The notes beneath the pieces were generated by a model, which was not told the origin of the DNA, ran no database searches, and worked only from the letters and a program-made list of their open reading frames with translations. Positions 1 through 6,665 of a DNA stretch of 64,000 bases are shown here, one piece after another. The position numbers were made by a program, and so were the translations under genes. The DNA is from a bacterium SCSIO 12741. Its GTDB lineage: Bacteria > Bacteroidota > Bacteroidia > Flavobacteriales_G > Salibacteraceae. The DNA lies in assembly GCA_024398055.1 (NCBI GenBank), contig CP073749.1:4216594-4280593 (forward strand). The letters are read 5' to 3'. How positions within the stretch are numbered: the first letter of the stretch is position 1; every line of letters begins with the position of its first letter.

Positions 1-280
1 ACACCGGGATTTGGTTTATGATCCGGGAAGGGTAAAAATCAAACCTTCTGGTATTGCTATTCATCCGTTAAGCGGTCATTTCTACGTGTTGGCCTCTACG
101 GGTAAAATCATGGTGGAAATGGATCGCAAAGGCGAAGTTGTTGCCACCTACCCTATTTCTCCCAATCTATTAATCCAACCTGAAGGAATATGCTTTGCTC
201 CAAACGGTGACCTCTACATTGCCAGTGAAGGTCAAGGTGAACGAGGATACATTTTAAAATTCAAGGTCAAAGAAAAATGA
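1..280 (+). CDS. C-terminal part of a beta-propeller protein, SdiA-regulated/NHL-like (truncated by window edge)
   Basis: The reading frame is open from base 2, so the N-terminus lies outside the window. The visible 93 residues show propeller-blade patterns such as GIAIHPLSGHFYVLAS followed by GKIMVEMDRKGEV, then PEGICFAPNGDLYIASEG. These 'hydrophobic strand, small loop, then Asn-Gly/Ser-Gly' units are typical of the SdiA-regulated (YjiK-like) and NHL beta-propeller families. Its stop overlaps the start of the next gene (ATGA, 277-280), so the two are probably translated together. Members of this family are usually periplasmic or exported and have no well-defined enzymatic role. The family call is good but the function is unknown; a phytase-like propeller cannot be excluded from this fragment. 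Confidence 0.6.
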   Translation, partial: HRDLVYDPGRVKIKPSGIAIHPLSGHFYVLASTGKIMVEMDRKGEVVATYPISPNLLIQPEGICFAPNGDLYIASEGQGERGYILKFKVKEK

Positions 281-3200
281 GGAGATTAACATTCCTCCTT
301 CTGCTTCTCCTGCCAACATTGCTTTTTGGGCAGGAAACCCGCCTTTTTTTTGTGGGCAACTTGGCAGTAGGTGATAGCAATACGACATCCACCTTAAATC
401 ATCTTCAACAGCAAATTCAACGAGCGGGTGAACAAGACATTCTTGTTTTTCTGGGAAACAACTACTTCTCCAATGACGAGTTGTACTCCCCCAACACCAA
501 TCCTCAATTACAACTCATTCGCGATTTTCCTGGAAGATCGGTAGTTCTTTCTGGCTACAATGATTGGGGCAAGGGTAAAAAGAAAGGTTGGGAACGCATT
601 CTGGATCAGGAAAGCTACTTCAACCAAATGGTGGACACGCCTGCCATATTCCTCCCTCCTTCTGGCTGCGGTGATCCAGTAGAGATTCTGTTGAATCAGG
701 AATTGGTTTTAATTGTGATCAACACGCAGTTTTTTCTGCATTCCTGGAATAAGCCCGGTGAAAAATACGGCTGTACAAGCGACAATGTAGAAATGGCTCT
801 TGACAACCTGGCTGAGCTCGTGCGCAAGAATTCATCCAAAAGAATCATTGTTGCCGGCTATCATCCGATATTGAGTTACGGACGACATCGCAAAGGCATT
901 GGAGTTCAAAACCTTTCGAATCCTCGCTATGCCTATTTCCGAAAAGAGCTTAATGACATTTTTGAATCCTCCGATCAACTGGTGTATGTATCAGCACATG
1001 ATGATGGTCTACAATACCTCACCAATGGATTAAACCATCAAATTGTGGTAGGCGCCGGTTCTGATTTTGGCAAATTGGATTCAGGCGACTTGAGTGTGTT
1101 TCACGCTGCGGTTCCAGGATTTGCAGAAATAGAATTTAAAGGCAAACGTCCTACCAATCTAACTTTATGGGATGGCCTTGAAAACAAGTCCGTTTATCAA
1201 ACCCAGCTGTACGAGCCTACGGTGCTGTATGATCCAGAGGAATTGGCATCAAGACCGGTATATAACGGCACCACCATGCTGCTGGCGGCCGATACTTCCC
1301 TGGCCAGTACAGGAACAACGGGCGAACGTCTCTTTTTAGGTAATGTCTACCGGTCGGAATGGAGCACCTTTATGGAGTTTCCAACCTTCGATTTAAAAAC
1401 CGAGCATGGCGGACTGGAAGTCAAGAAAGTAGGTGGCGGTGGTCAAACCCGAACTTTACGATTGGAAGCTGCTAATGGCCGTCAATATGTACTGAGATCT
1501 TTGAAGAAATGGCCGGTAAAAGCTGTGCCCGATATTTTCAAACCCACTTTTGCCGCGCAGTTGGCTACTGACCAAATGTCGGACGCGCATCCTTATGGCG
1601 CTTTGGTGGTGCCCAGACTGGCGGATGCCGTTAAAATTCTACATACCAATCCTACCATTGTGGCACTTCCAGATGACCCTCTATTGGGAAAATACCGCAA
1701 CGATTTCAAGGGACTTTTGGCTCTATATGAAGAACGGCCCAATGATGAAGCGGCTGGAGAGCCCCATTTCGGATCGGGAGAGGAAATCAAGAGTACCTTC
1801 GATGTGCTCGACAAATTGCGCAAAAACAACAACCACCGTATCGATGATAAGTTCTTGATCCGAAACCGCATGTTTGATATGTGGATGGGCGATTGGGATC
1901 GTCACGAAGATCAATGGAGATGGGTGGAAACGAAGAACAAAAAAGGTGGAGGAAACCTCTACCGCCCTATTCCACGTGATCGTGATCAAGTGTTCTTTAC
2001 CACTCAAGGTCTTCTGCCCTGGTTGGTGGCCCGCAAAAGTGTATACCCCATCTTTCAAGGTTTTCACCACGAGGTAAAATGGGCGGATGCATTGAACTGG
2101 CAAGCCCGTTGGTTTGACCGTTCTTTTTTGAATCAACTGGAATGGAAAGATTGGGAAAAGCAAATCCATTACCTTCAGAAGCACTTAACGGATGAAGTGA
2201 TCGATTCAGCCTTCGCCATTTGGCCGGATACCATCTATAACATGTCCGGTCCTGAGATCAAGTCTAAGCTGCAGTCCAGAAGAGCCAACATGGAAGAATA
2301 TGGCCGGGAGTACTATGAGTTTTTGGCCAAAGAGGTAGATGTTATTGGTTCGGATGAAGCTGAGTTTTTTGAAGTCAACCGTATTGATAGCAAAAAGACC
2401 CGGGTTAAGGTATACAAGCTGTCCAAAAAGGGTAAGCACAAAAACGTAATCTACAAGCGTACCTTCCTAACTAAGGAGACCAAAGAAATCAGATTGTATG
2501 GACTTGGTGGAGACGATGTTTTTCACATTGAAGGAGAAGCCCGCAGAGGAATAAAGATTAGAGTGATTGGTGGAGCGGGAAAAGATTCAATCGTAGATGA
2601 ATCTATCGTATATGGTTTGATTAAAAAGACCGTGGTGTATGATGAGAAAGAAGACACCAAACTGACTTCGGGCAGAGAAACGGCTAATCGCCTATCCAAC
2701 GATCCGGGTGTAAATCGCTATGATCGCAAGGCCTATAAGGTAGATCGTACTATTCCCCTAATCTCGGTAAACTGGAACCGGGACGACGGAGTATTTATCG
2801 GTGGCGGTGCCATGATCATTAAGCAAGGATTTAGAAAATACCCTTACAAGGAAAAACACCGAATTGCAGGTAACCTTGCCTTTGCCACCGGAGCATTTAA
2901 GCTGCAATACAAAGGCGATTGGACCGACGTATTTGGCAAATGGGATGTAAATGCTGACCTCTTAATCAACCGACCCTATGGAGTGGCCAACTTCTTTGGA
3001 ATGGGGAATGAATCCGTGTTTAACACCAATAAAGACGACGTTCCTGAAGGTTTTAGCCGCCCCATTGATTTCTACCGAATGCGATACGAGCTATTCGAAT
3101 CTGAGGTAAACTTGAAGAGGAATATCGGCAAACGATTTGATTTCTTCATTGGTCCTCGTTCTGGAAGTTATCACATCATCCATCAAGATGATCGCTTTAT

Positions 3201-3810
3201 TGCTCAACCGGGCAATGGACTGGATTCTACCCGCACCTTTGGTTATTATCACTACCTGGGCCTTGGTTCCCGAATAGAATTGGATACCCGGGATAATGCA
3301 GTTCTTCCTACCCGGGGTATTTCAGGCGAGGTTTCTTTCGATGGTTTTGGTGGCCTGAATGATAATTCGAAACCCTTTGCCCGAATGCACGCCGAGTTGG
3401 AATACATCTTCAGCGTAAAACTTCCGGCTATTCTATCCATTGCTAACCGGGTCGGTTATTCGGCTTCTTATGGCGATTATGAATTCTTCAACGGTGCTGT
3501 TCTGGGAAGACAATACATGCGAGGCCTTCGTAGAGGACGTTACTACGGTGACCAATTGTTCTTCCACAACCTGGATGTTCGTTTAAAAATTCTATCCTTC
3601 ACTTCTATCATCGTTCCTGGTTCATTTGGTGTGCTTGGCTTTCATGATGTAGGACGAGTGTGGTATGAGCCCGAAACTTCCTACCGTTGGCACAACTCAT
3701 ACGGTGGTGGTGTTTGGCTATCGCCACTCAATGTTATCACCTTTACCCTCACCTATGCCCATACCGAGGATGAGGATCAGGTCATTATTAAAACCCGTTT
3801 TCATTTCTGA
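277..3810 (+). CDS. Outer-membrane protein: degenerate metallophosphoesterase domain, kinase-like region, Omp85/BamA-type barrel
   Basis: This 1177-residue protein has a signal peptide (residues 1-18, ending LLFGQ). Residues about 20-315 follow the calcineurin-like phosphoesterase layout, but metal-ligand motifs are altered: GN at 27-28 where GD is usual, GNN at 60-62 for GDN, GYNDW at 93-97 for GNHDW, YHP near 196, and AHDDGLQY for GHxHxLQY. Residues about 370-620 look kinase-like: a glycine-rich stretch (VGGGGQTRT, 385-392), YVLRSLKK (404-411), DWDRHEDQW (539-547) and RDRDQ (567-571), reminiscent of the DRH...N...D features of CotH/Fam20-type kinases. A GGDDVF/GGAGKD patch near 745-775 resembles calcium-binding repeats. 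Residues about 820-1177 form an Omp85-like surface-antigen barrel ending in Phe. It overlaps both neighbours (ATGA upstream, TGATG downstream). The barrel and phosphoesterase fold are well supported; the kinase-like reading is inference. Confidence 0.8.
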   Translation: MRRLTFLLLLLLPTLLFGQETRLFFVGNLAVGDSNTTSTLNHLQQQIQRAGEQDILVFLGNNYFSNDELYSPNTNPQLQLIRDFPGRSVVLSGYNDWGKGKKKGWERILDQESYFNQMVDTPAIFLPPSGCGDPVEILLNQELVLIVINTQFFLHSWNKPGEKYGCTSDNVEMALDNLAELVRKNSSKRIIVAGYHPILSYGRHRKGIGVQNLSNPRYAYFRKELNDIFESSDQLVYVSAHDDGLQYLTNGLNHQIVVGAGSDFGKLDSGDLSVFHAAVPGFAEIEFKGKRPTNLTLWDGLENKSVYQTQLYEPTVLYDPEELASRPVYNGTTMLLAADTSLASTGTTGERLFLGNVYRSEWSTFMEFPTFDLKTEHGGLEVKKVGGGGQTRTLRLEAANGRQYVLRSLKKWPVKAVPDIFKPTFAAQLATDQMSDAHPYGALVVPRLADAVKILHTNPTIVALPDDPLLGKYRNDFKGLLALYEERPNDEAAGEPHFGSGEEIKSTFDVLDKLRKNNNHRIDDKFLIRNRMFDMWMGDWDRHEDQWRWVETKNKKGGGNLYRPIPRDRDQVFFTTQGLLPWLVARKSVYPIFQGFHHEVKWADALNWQARWFDRSFLNQLEWKDWEKQIHYLQKHLTDEVIDSAFAIWPDTIYNMSGPEIKSKLQSRRANMEEYGREYYEFLAKEVDVIGSDEAEFFEVNRIDSKKTRVKVYKLSKKGKHKNVIYKRTFLTKETKEIRLYGLGGDDVFHIEGEARRGIKIRVIGGAGKDSIVDESIVYGLIKKTVVYDEKEDTKLTSGRETANRLSNDPGVNRYDRKAYKVDRTIPLISVNWNRDDGVFIGGGAMIIKQGFRKYPYKEKHRIAGNLAFATGAFKLQYKGDWTDVFGKWDVNADLLINRPYGVANFFGMGNESVFNTNKDDVPEGFSRPIDFYRMRYELFESEVNLKRNIGKRFDFFIGPRSGSYHIIHQDDRFIAQPGNGLDSTRTFGYYHYLGLGSRIELDTRDNAVLPTRGISGEVSFDGFGGLNDNSKPFARMHAELEYIFSVKLPAILSIANRVGYSASYGDYEFFNGAVLGRQYMRGLRRGRYYGDQLFFHNLDVRLKILSFTSIIVPGSFGVLGFHDVGRVWYEPETSYRWHNSYGGGVWLSPLNVITFTLTYAHTEDEDQVIIKTRFHF

Positions 3811-4886
3811 TGACATCTCATAAAGCTGGATTAACCGGAATACTTGCCTCACTAATCCTTATTACTGCCGCTTGTGCTCCGTACAATCGCATAACTCCTT
3901 ACCCCTATACGCTGCAACAACCCGCTATTCTGGCGGATAGTATGGCGGATATTCCTCCGGGCAACTGGAAAATCTATCCAGCCGATTCTCCCGATTTAAA
4001 AACCGTCAAATGGGAAAAGGAAATGATGGTTCCAATCCGGGTCGCCGAATATTCCACAAACGCTCGGCCCTACTACGTTTTGGTGGATCCCATGCAAAAG
4101 GACACGTTGGTGGTTTCCAATCGCTTGCAGCCGGTGGATAATGTTCTCAACTTTCGTGATTTGGGCGGAATAAGAACCGTTGATGGCAAACGGGTAAAAT
4201 GGGGAAAGATTTATCGATCAGGACATCTTGGAGACTTAAAGTCCAAAGATTTTGGTCAATTGGAGGACTTACATATAACCCATGTGGTAGATCTCAGAAC
4301 CACAGGAGAAATGGCCCATCATCCAGATCAATTACCAGCCGATAGCAGCATTGCCTGGGTTCCGGTTTCCGTTTCAGGCATCCTCTTTGCCGATATTGAG
4401 CAAGCCCGAACGGATATTCGCAAGCAGTCGGCGGAAGAGTTTGATGGCCATGGCCGTATGATTCAAATGATGGATACCATAACCGTTTCTGGTGGGGAAG
4501 ATTTTAGAAAGGTATTTGACCTGTTACTCAGCGATAGCACCGATGCCCTACTCTACCATTGCACCGCTGGAAAAGACCGAACCGGGCTGATGACAACGCT
4601 TATCCTATCATCGCTCGGGGTGTCCGATTCGGTGATCATGCAAGACTACCTGCTTTCCAATTATTACCGCTACGACAAGATTGAACGCTTTACCCGACTT
4701 GGGGCACGGTTTTTGGGAATAGAGAATGAGTCGATACGATCCGTTCTTGAAGTAAGGCCAGAATACCTGCAAGCGTCCTACGCTCAAATTCAAAAAGAAT
4801 ACGGTTCTCTGGATCAATACCTTCGAAAAGCGGTCGGTTTGACAACGGAAGAGATAAACCGCTTAAAAGAGCGTTATCTCGAATAA
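3810..4886 (+). CDS. Lipoprotein tyrosine phosphatase (Y_phosphatase3-type)
   Basis: This is a 358-residue dual-specificity/tyrosine phosphatase of the family that includes PtpA/MptpB-like and LipA-like enzymes. The catalytic loop HCTAGKDRTG carries nucleophile Cys251 and Arg257 of the CX5R signature. The upstream motif NFRDLGGIRTVDG and then KIYRSGHL are the family's characteristic substrate-loop and strand motifs. A lipobox (ITAAC, Cys22) follows a hydrophobic signal, so the enzyme should be membrane-anchored and face the periplasm or surface. Its ATG overlaps the preceding stop by one base (TGATG, 3808-3812), strongly suggesting translational coupling to the barrel protein. Substrate could be phosphotyrosine, phosphoserine or phosphoinositide; the sequence does not decide. 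All key catalytic residues are present, unlike those of the upstream phosphoesterase domain. Confidence 0.9.
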   Translation: MTSHKAGLTGILASLILITAACAPYNRITPYPYTLQQPAILADSMADIPPGNWKIYPADSPDLKTVKWEKEMMVPIRVAEYSTNARPYYVLVDPMQKDTLVVSNRLQPVDNVLNFRDLGGIRTVDGKRVKWGKIYRSGHLGDLKSKDFGQLEDLHITHVVDLRTTGEMAHHPDQLPADSSIAWVPVSVSGILFADIEQARTDIRKQSAEEFDGHGRMIQMMDTITVSGGEDFRKVFDLLLSDSTDALLYHCTAGKDRTGLMTTLILSSLGVSDSVIMQDYLLSNYYRYDKIERFTRLGARFLGIENESIRSVLEVRPEYLQASYAQIQKEYGSLDQYLRKAVGLTTEEINRLKERYLE

Positions 4887-4986
4887 TTTTCAAGGACATA
4901 CGATAATTCAACAATTAGCGTTACTTTGAACTTTTTACGGGGAAAATGGTTTGTTAAGAGCTATCCCATCTGAGAGGGCAGTAGAG

Positions 4987-5607
4987 ATGGAAGTACAGGA
5001 TTTACCACACATAATCGAATCGGCTGAGAAGCATGTCACCGAATTATTCAGGGAACAACTTCCTGAAGAAGCGGTTTATCATTCCTTGGAACACACTCAA
5101 TTTGTAGTAGACAAGTCTCGGGAAATTGGACAGCATTCTGGGCTTACTGAAAGTGAACTTCAGCTGGTGGAGCTGGCTGCGTGGTTTCACGATGTCGGTT
5201 ACCTAAAGCAAGCAAAGGGACACGAAGATTACAGCATTAAGATTGCTGTCCCCTATTTGCAGAATCAGGGATTGAACGAAGACCAGATTGAATTTGTAGT
5301 CCGTTGTATTGAAGCTACTCGTATGCCTCAACAGCCCAAAGACTTGGCTGGTCAAGTGATTTGTGATGCAGATCTGTCCCACTTCGGCATGGCGGGTATG
5401 TACGACAAAACGATGATTCTACTCAAAGAAATGCGTAACCTTTGCCTGCATGAGTTAGAAGATGGTCAATGGTTGCAAATGACGATTGATCTACTGGAGC
5501 ATCATGAATACTTCACTCCTTACGCCCGGGAAAACTTTGAGGAACAAAAAAGGATTAATGAAAAACAGATCCGTCAGAAGTTATCCGAGATTACTCCTAC
5601 CCACTAA
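4987..5607 (+). CDS. HD-domain metal-dependent phosphohydrolase
   Basis: This soluble protein of 206 residues has the HD superfamily metal motifs in order: YHSLEHT (first His), AAWFHDVGY (the HD pair), GHEDYS and CDADLSHFG (distal Asp). The overall size and spacing fit stand-alone HD hydrolases related to the hydrolase half of SpoT-like and nucleotidase proteins. The substrate is unknown. I prefer the ATG at 4987, preceded by purine-rich GAGGGCAGTAGAG, over an in-frame TTG at 4951. The stop overlaps by three bases the stop of the converging cyclase gene. A possible -7 element (TTACTTTG) lies at 4921-4928. A nucleotide-second-messenger role next to a cyclase is tempting but not shown by the sequence. 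Confidence 0.85.
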   Translation: MEVQDLPHIIESAEKHVTELFREQLPEEAVYHSLEHTQFVVDKSREIGQHSGLTESELQLVELAAWFHDVGYLKQAKGHEDYSIKIAVPYLQNQGLNEDQIEFVVRCIEATRMPQQPKDLAGQVICDADLSHFGMAGMYDKTMILLKEMRNLCLHELEDGQWLQMTIDLLEHHEYFTPYARENFEEQKRINEKQIRQKLSEITPTH

Positions 5608-6665
5608 TGCCCGTTAGACCCTAATCGGTCAATTTCATACAGGTTAACATCATTCTCCTTACCCTTGAGGTGAATTTTTCCAACTGGTTTTACCGCAAAT
5701 TCCTGATACGTTTCTATTCGCTGGTAAAAGGCTTCGGAGATTAGCACATGGCGCCCCAATTCACCAGTTTGATCCTGAATACGTGATGCTGTATTAATCG
5801 TATCGCCATGATACGCCAACTCTCGTTTAAGAGTACCTACTTCAGCAATGGTGACATCTCCTACATGGATTCCTGCTTTAAATTGTGGTACTACACCAAA
5901 TTCACGACGGTAGAACCCGCTCCTGGCATCGATGGTGTCCAAAAACTTAAACAAAGCCCTACAAGATTCTGCTGAGCTGTTTTTAAGCTTGGTATCCCAG
6001 AACAAAATCACTCCATCGCCGATGTACTGATATACTTCTGAATGGTGATCATATACCACGGCCAGGTCGTGAAAACACTCCTGGATTAATAAACTGTATT
6101 TCTCATGTCCCAGTTGCTCGGCCAACTTAGTAGAAGATTTCATATCAATGAACATGATAATCCGTTCATCTACCTGAGGTTTATAAAATTTACCTTGAAG
6201 GAGCTTAAGCAAATTACCTCGCCCCAACATGCGATTGGTCACAATAGAAATACCCACGAAAGCATTGACTATCGAAGCATAAACCAAAGCCACTGGCACT
6301 ATCCGCATCGAGTAAAACTCATGTATAGAAGTGGGTACGCCTGGTATATTGAAGAGTTGAGCAACATAGTAGACGGAAGTCATGGAAAATACACCCACGA
6401 TCATTTGCACCGTGAGGAAAACCAAAATCATTTTGTGAAATCGTATTCTTCCGGCTAAATTCTGTTCAAATAGAATGTGGAAGCCTCCATAAATCATGGA
6501 TTGACAGAACCAAAGGAGAAAGAAAATCCCCATACCGTCAATGGAATAGAGCAGCCCAAACTCATCTCGTCCATAACTTCCATAACGCAGCAGTTCCCAA
6601 AGCAGACCGGCAAAGAACCAGCCCAGCATGTAATCTCTAATAATTCTTTGGTATTCCTCTTTCAA
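5604..6665 (-). CDS. Membrane-anchored class III adenylate/guanylate cyclase
   Basis: The N-terminal ~165 residues carry about four to five hydrophobic segments, followed by a cytoplasmic class III cyclase domain (about 175-350). Catalytic motifs are visible: FIDMKSSTKL (first metal-binding Asp), YIGDGVILFW (second metal Asp), FKAGIHVGDV, and YHGDTINTASRI (the Asn and Arg that stabilise the transition state). The Asp in HGDT is the residue type common in adenylate-specific members, so cAMP is the likelier product. The start is uncertain: TTG at 6665 keeps a short basic/acidic leader, while ATG at 6629 begins right at the first membrane segment. A perfect Bacteroidota -7 box lies 33 bases upstream of the TTG. 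It converges on the HD gene, overlapping its stop. Confidence 0.9.
   Translation of the reverse strand: MKEEYQRIIRDYMLGWFFAGLLWELLRYGSYGRDEFGLLYSIDGMGIFFLLWFCQSMIYGGFHILFEQNLAGRIRFHKMILVFLTVQMIVGVFSMTSVYYVAQLFNIPGVPTSIHEFYSMRIVPVALVYASIVNAFVGISIVTNRMLGRGNLLKLLQGKFYKPQVDERIIMFIDMKSSTKLAEQLGHEKYSLLIQECFHDLAVVYDHHSEVYQYIGDGVILFWDTKLKNSSAESCRALFKFLDTIDARSGFYRREFGVVPQFKAGIHVGDVTIAEVGTLKRELAYHGDTINTASRIQDQTGELGRHVLISEAFYQRIETYQEFAVKPVGKIHLKGKENDVNLYEIDRLGSNGH

Follow-up and report, generated by a model that had tools for sequence, protein, structure and literature searches.

An outer-membrane protein family of Bacteroidota that joins a kinase-like domain to an Omp85 barrel, and its possible part in a recurrent envelope phospho-signalling gene set

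What might three genes that overlap end to start, one of them encoding a large outer-membrane protein with kinase-like and phosphatase-like parts, be doing together at the envelope of bacterium SCSIO 12741 (Bacteroidota; Salibacteraceae)? We addressed this question in a 64,000-nucleotide stretch of contig CP073749.1 (positions 4,216,594 to 4,280,593; hereafter the window), which opens with a row of genes, all on the + strand, for the 3' part of a propeller protein of the SdiA-regulated type (1..280), an outer-membrane protein of 1177 residues (hereafter OMP; 277..3810) and a protein tyrosine phosphatase (PTP; 3810..4886). Our analysis places the OMP in a widespread, unnamed family of the Bacteroidota in which an Omp85 barrel is preceded by an atypical kinase domain, which in turn follows a metallophosphoesterase domain in most long copies. 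That the OMP acts as the outer-membrane, substrate-modifying part of a recurrent envelope phospho-signalling gene set is a proposal that we regard as evenly balanced between right and wrong.

The preliminary description of this DNA had listed two gene overlaps, a propeller protein, a 1177-residue outer-membrane protein and an intact tyrosine phosphatase, all of which stand. The letters ATGA (277-280) are common to the propeller stop and the OMP start, and TGATG (3808-3812) to the OMP stop and the PTP start; the propeller matches PF06977 (E 4.4e-10), and the 358-residue PTP matches PF13350 (Y_phosphatase3, E 2e-69) and contains a CX5R motif (HCTAGKDRTG). The propeller gene is truncated by the window edge, the whole gene encoding 345 residues (7243-8280 of L002, our label for this genome's locus). 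Inspection of the N-termini by eye predicts that propeller and PTP are exported lipoproteins and that the OMP carries a signal peptide. The sole Pfam match of the OMP is Omp85 (PF01103, 28.4 bits against a cut-off of 24), and its full-length model (67 sequences; mean predicted local distance difference test score, pLDDT, 87.4; predicted TM-score, pTM, 0.78) matched BamA and TamA in Foldseek and ends in a barrel (residues 824-1177; 2746..3807) whose 16 long strands, counted by hand, run from residue 824 to 1175. The RG motif of loop 6, which is conserved in the Omp85 superfamily, is present, with R1082 invariant and G1083 nearly invariant in the 67 sequences. Family match, C-terminal barrel and motif together make the OMP a member of this superfamily. 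The Pfam scan of the OMP returned no POTRA family match, and what precedes the barrel is the kinase-like domain followed by a beta-rich segment to which the models assign no fold (about residues 684-800; 2326..2676); Omp85 subfamilies without POTRA exist, according to the excerpted text of a superfamily survey (Heinz and Lithgow 2014, PMC4104836).

The kinase-like region that had been proposed for residues 370-620 is confirmed as a fold. For residues 322-812, a model built from 101 sequences reached a mean pLDDT of 94.8 and a pTM of 0.93, and Foldseek ranked CtkA first (E 2.4e-5), followed by Rio2 (4.3e-4), PI4KIIalpha (9e-4) and HipA (1.3e-3). Upon realignment, the highest Z was obtained for PI4K-II (Z 14.9 over 258 residues, root-mean-square deviation 4.6), with CotH (14.5, 256, 4.2), CtkA (12.9, 241, 5.2) and HipA (11.2, 213, 4.0) behind it; the range aligned to most solved kinases is residues 367-683 (1375..2325). 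Of the three folds that had been suggested for comparison, CotH and HipA were matched, and Fam20 is not among the matches listed from either Foldseek or the realignment, which excludes nothing. In a viral fold library the best matches included, together with other kinases, phage proteins that carry a PI3/4-kinase or CotH annotation, and this adds no function. No Pfam kinase family was recognised: in a scan of 101 members taken singly, 55 families appeared at E<=1, 25 of these were examined, and no Pfam family matched more than two members. A toxin-antitoxin of the HipA type was considered and set aside, with no supporting family match among those 25.

Conservation of the active site was assessed in 118 aligned sequences, a set that contains near-duplicates (an 85% identity limit leaves 107 of the 117 homologues). 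The alignment defines a catalytic-loop motif, DWDRHEDQWRW (residues 539-549; 1891..1923), and a metal-binding motif, RDRDQVF (residues 567-573; 1975..1995). Within them three residues do not vary (D539, D568 and R569), 116 of the 118 sequences have D541, and D570 and H543 are each kept in 117; K411, also found in 117, and R407, equally frequent, are both candidates for the place of the ATP-anchoring lysine of strand 3. The active-site residues are kept also where the phosphatase half of the protein has decayed, and several of the kinase motifs deviate in a divergent Parabacteroides copy (L030). A kinase fold of the PI3/4K-CotH-HipA class is well supported by the models, its acidic residues are strongly constrained, and catalysis is predicted.

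Copies of the kinase-like domain were also observed in other settings. Four Rufibacter loci (L065, L086, L089 and L094) have a second kinase-like copy without a barrel, a few genes upstream and on the other strand; in L065 and L086 this copy is 538 residues long (own residues about 324-811), and DWDRH and KDRD are kept in both copies read. On a Hymenobacter monticola plasmid (L031, 5019-6437), an open reading frame (ORF) of 472 codons matches OMP residues 273-770 in two pieces, together with the small ORF that follows; it adjoins an efflux-pump gene, and no barrel match was reported there.

The N-terminal part of the OMP (about residues 20-310; 334..1206) is a decayed metallophosphoesterase-like domain, and the earlier call of a degenerate phosphoesterase agrees with the alignment: 2 of 7 presumed metal-ligand positions are kept in this OMP, short of the complete set, versus all 7 in 92 of the 118 sequences. 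An intact homologue from Ekhidna lutea (L032; that of Chitinophaga arvensicola, L076, is likewise intact) matches PF00149, and the best Foldseek E-value of the full-length model is 4.6e-12, to Plasmodium GAP50 (3tgh) over 313 columns, a match that we assign to this domain because of its length, Foldseek having given no range. The motifs suggest a domain that we take to be purple-acid-phosphatase-like. Long copies of the family, of about 1240 residues, have the phosphatase domain, and short copies, of about 870 residues, are without it; many members have no phosphatase half or a decayed one, whereas almost every aligned sequence retains the kinase motifs. The best reading of this pattern is that the phosphatase half has fallen into decay again and again and the kinase half has been retained. 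The usual phosphatase of the family is the N-terminal domain of the OMP itself, which has decayed in this genome. One cluster (L144) contains a separate phosphatase gene of 366 codons and an 853-codon kinase-barrel gene. Separately, we observed that two ORFs with a single TAG between them make up the OMP in L073 and L112, the break lying inside the phosphatase part.

The OMP family is present in 167 of 392 Bacteroidota genomes (E<=1e-20), and an alignment-based search of GTDB contigs returned at least 572 stretches that encode a relative; a single-sequence search of GTDB contigs returned no relative. Gene order was compared in 80 named loci, the best 80 of these at least 572 by similarity to this OMP. 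The propeller gene lies directly upstream of the OMP gene on the same strand in 42 of the 80, with the same 4-base overlap in 14 of those 42 (ORFs, here as elsewhere, being read from the most upstream start codon), which indicates that the overlaps are beyond chance. The neighbour most frequently linked to the OMP is the HD-PycTM protein, which occurs, whole or as its two halves, in 55 of the 80 loci and is at most two genes away from the OMP in 52. In this genome the operon is flanked by the two halves: the HD-domain gene (4951..5607, + strand; PF01966, E 1.3e-6) follows the PTP gene, with a start listed as TTG and a likelier in-frame ATG at 4987, and the genome's one PycTM gene (L002 6488-7111; PF18967, E 6.4e-37) lies outside the window, upstream of the propeller and on the opposite strand.

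The linkage extends to the phylum sample, in which, among the matches listed, 90 of 105 long OMP matches have an HD-PycTM protein within 15 kb (60 of the 105 within 1.5 kb), as do 1 of 3 intermediate matches and 23 of 42 short ones, the short class being set by match length and including a few partial matches of long copies. Conversely, 82 of the 96 HD-PycTM fusions listed have an OMP within 15 kb; for the 'partial' class of HD-PycTM matches the count is 29 of 43, or 29 of 54 if 11 HD-only matches are added, all of them from genomes for which no OMP is listed. By an estimate that ignores relatedness, far fewer linkages would be expected from random placement. Where both flanks reach at least 5 kb (56 loci, a set to which this genome does not belong), HD/PycTM genes are kept in 42 of 44 loci with an intact phosphatase domain versus 4 of 12 in which that domain has decayed (Fisher p 1.3e-5, relatedness ignored), and 7 of the 8 losses that accompany a decayed phosphatase are in Rufibacter or Hymenobacter. 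This genome combines a decayed OMP phosphatase with HD and PycTM genes that are both kept.

The tyrosine phosphatase (P0002) presents a different picture. It is the sole PF13350 phosphatase of this genome; of 60 relatives searched at E<=1e-10, the 59 other than this genome returned no match, nor did any further locus examined at E<=1e-4 show one next to its OMP. It belongs to the operon in this genome only, and its distant relatives, on plasmids, show 32-35% identity among the ten matches listed. As a conserved partner of the OMP it was rejected on the count of 1 in 60 related genomes, and the pairing of kinase and tyrosine phosphatase that the preliminary description had put forward as a system is not supported. 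That description had also raised conserved gene order and a surface phospho-signalling module: the order is conserved for propeller and OMP and not for the PTP, and of the module there remain a kinase fold fused to a barrel and the operon with the propeller. In this one genome, P0002 possibly took over from the decayed phosphatase domain of the OMP.

How could these parts work together? We propose a gene set consisting of the OMP, the SdiA-regulated-type propeller and the HD-PycTM inner-membrane protein, joined in some loci by the polyphosphate kinase PPK1, a SixA-like phosphatase and a class III cyclase. An envelope substrate would receive phosphate (or a nucleotide) from the kinase domain and lose it again through the phosphatase domain, and the state of the envelope would be coupled to the HD-PycTM protein as the inner-membrane partner; in this genome, with the phosphatase half decayed, the separate PTP may fill the same role. 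A more specific version, which we consider unlikely, is that members of the OMP family in Bacteroidota write and erase phosphate on exported or surface proteins from a donor other than cytoplasmic ATP (e.g., polyphosphate) and that the HD-PycTM protein reads the resulting state, which would constitute a trans-envelope phospho-switch and make the family a candidate for kinases of exported proteins in this phylum.

Several observations weigh against the proposed gene set. The periplasm is thought to lack ATP. The TM-scores by query are modest for the kinase rows (0.24-0.33), in part because the model carries the extra beta-rich segment, and a profile search against PDB sequences, which placed CtkA first over the catalytic loop with the DRH aligned, did so at an E of 0.015, next to an unrelated second match at 0.066, and is by itself insufficient for a kinase call. 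Residue 546, at the metal-binding position of the catalytic loop, where kinases usually have Asn, is Gln in 116 of the 118 aligned sequences and Asn in 2, which departs from the PI3/4K-CotH-HipA class, and residue 407 is Arg in 117. HD/PycTM genes are lacking in 25 of the 80 named loci (about half of the 25 have flanks too short to tell), 14 of the 96 fusions listed have no OMP within 15 kb, and HD-PycTM-type matches occur in 177 of the 392 genomes, some of them without an OMP. PPK1 occurs almost throughout the phylum (353 of 392 genomes), and the two PPK1 genes of this genome, at 0.45 and 3.93 Mb, are unlinked to the operon at 4.22 Mb. The role of P0002, finally, rests on one genome.

Because of the Gln at 546 and the Arg at 407, both family-wide, we take seriously a pseudokinase, in which the domain would be a non-catalytic sensor or scaffold that binds a nucleotide, polyphosphate or a phosphorylated ligand and the barrel would anchor it in the outer membrane. 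No ATP is expected outside the cytoplasm, the adjoining phosphatase domain decays repeatedly, and GAP50, the best solved match of that domain, is a phosphatase-fold protein with a non-catalytic anchor role, all of which would fit such a sensor. On the other hand, at least 116 of 118 sequences retain K411 and both metal/catalytic Asp residues, beyond what would be expected of a mere scaffold, and the degenerate phosphatase halves in the same proteins show what loss of function looks like. We judge a pseudokinase sensor unlikely, and count it, together with a polyphosphate module, as one of the two strongest rivals of the proposed gene set.

The polyphosphate module would be a cluster that handles polyphosphate or phosphate esters at the envelope, with PPK1 and the SixA-like protein inside and the OMP outside. 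PPK1 is found near the OMP in 17 of the 80 named loci, and the order cyclase, PPK1, HD/PycTM, propeller, OMP recurs in L032, L033, L038 and L069; a SixA-like gene is present in 2 of the 80 and in 8 of 16 selected regions, which were hand-picked and are mostly short copies with HD-PycTM nearby, so that their rates are biased. PPK1 is nonetheless absent from most named loci as well as unlinked here, 7 of the 17 loci with it are from Chitinophaga, the kinase fold of the OMP differs from the polyphosphate-kinase fold, and a paper on phosphate starvation in F. johnsoniae names no such Omp85 protein in its excerpted text (PMC8115612). PPK1 was rejected as a constant partner of the OMP on the count of 17 in 80, and we hold the module to be decidedly unlikely.

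Two further neighbours were observed along the way. In 20 of the 80 named loci (e.g., L097 5757-8108), the OMP has, at most two genes away, a protein of about 783 residues with no Pfam match at 1e-4 and no NCBIfam match at 0.01. In the Bacteroidales loci L048, L058, L061 and L083, a pyruvate-kinase-type gene of about 620-630 codons follows the HD-PycTM gene, the family search having covered L048.

The cyclase and the PycTM domain invite comparison with Pycsar, which consists of PycC with PycTM or PycTIR (PMC11224242, in the excerpt available). Six class III cyclases are encoded in this genome, one of them beside the HD gene and convergent with it (5604..6665, - strand), and a class III cyclase lies in the flanks of 23 of the 80 named loci; PADLOC models for PycTM/2TM-effector and PycC match the PycTM and cyclase proteins. 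A defence system of the Pycsar or CBASS kind would make cyclase and HD-PycTM an abortive-infection pair and the OMP a phage-attachment or damage sensor. The gene set differs from Pycsar in the HD fusion, in the recurrent outer-membrane kinase-like partner and in a cyclase that is often not seen (most loci are without one within the flanks examined), and its effector bears an HD domain rather than the nucleotide-binding pair of the excerpted description (PMC11224242). Moreover, the gene set is widespread at a chromosomal locus, and PADLOC returned no match for the OMP, propeller or PTP. Defence is, in our view, improbable.

The high Z of PI4K-II, together with a Phytase-like match of the propeller that is weak and below the cut-off, would accord with an inositol-phosphate or phosphoinositide cycle at the outer membrane. 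An inositol-phosphate synthase (PF01658) is missing from this genome and is present in 64 of the 392 genomes and, by a comparison of two tables by hand, in 36 of the 167 with an OMP, and for this reason we disfavour such a cycle and consider it highly improbable.

Set against known systems, the OMP resembles CtkA, HipA, CotH and PI4K-II in fold and in a DRH-type catalytic loop followed by a metal-binding Asp. It differs from them in its predicted export, its fusion to an Omp85 barrel, the Gln at the Asn position and Arg407, in the lack of a match to their Pfam families among the 25 of 55 examined, and in that no HipB-like neighbour was recognised; a paper on HipA-homologous kinases has no CtkA, outer membrane or periplasm in its text (PMC8262856). 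The Omp85 survey reports, in its excerpted text, fusions of PF00149 to Omp85 as a genus-level 'Metallo' subfamily, read there as a metalloprotease (PMC4104836). By description, to which this comparison is confined, that subfamily shares with the OMP family a PF00149 domain before the barrel; 'kinase' is nowhere in the survey's text, whereas the OMP family is phylum-wide and has a kinase domain in between. The same excerpt covers PlpD-type patatin-Omp85 proteins, which likewise have an enzyme domain N-terminal to the barrel, whereas the OMP has kinase and phosphatase domains in place of patatin, with no POTRA seen. The excerpted texts of the F. johnsoniae paper (PMC8115612) and of a paper on Riemerella OMP76 do not describe the OMP family. 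Across titles and the starts of abstracts in the open-access literature, a scope that leaves aside most subscription papers and bioRxiv, we found no description of a kinase-Omp85 protein or of the gene set.

To our knowledge, little is established about which enzymes place phosphate on the exported proteins of Gram-negative bacteria. For gingipains, the excerpted text of a review on the type IX secretion system describes the responsible kinases as not identified (PMC10202324). With its well-kept kinase-type active site and its linkage to HD-PycTM, the widespread OMP family provides concrete genes to test, and the OMP is a testable candidate for an enzyme that would phosphorylate targets outside the cell interior.

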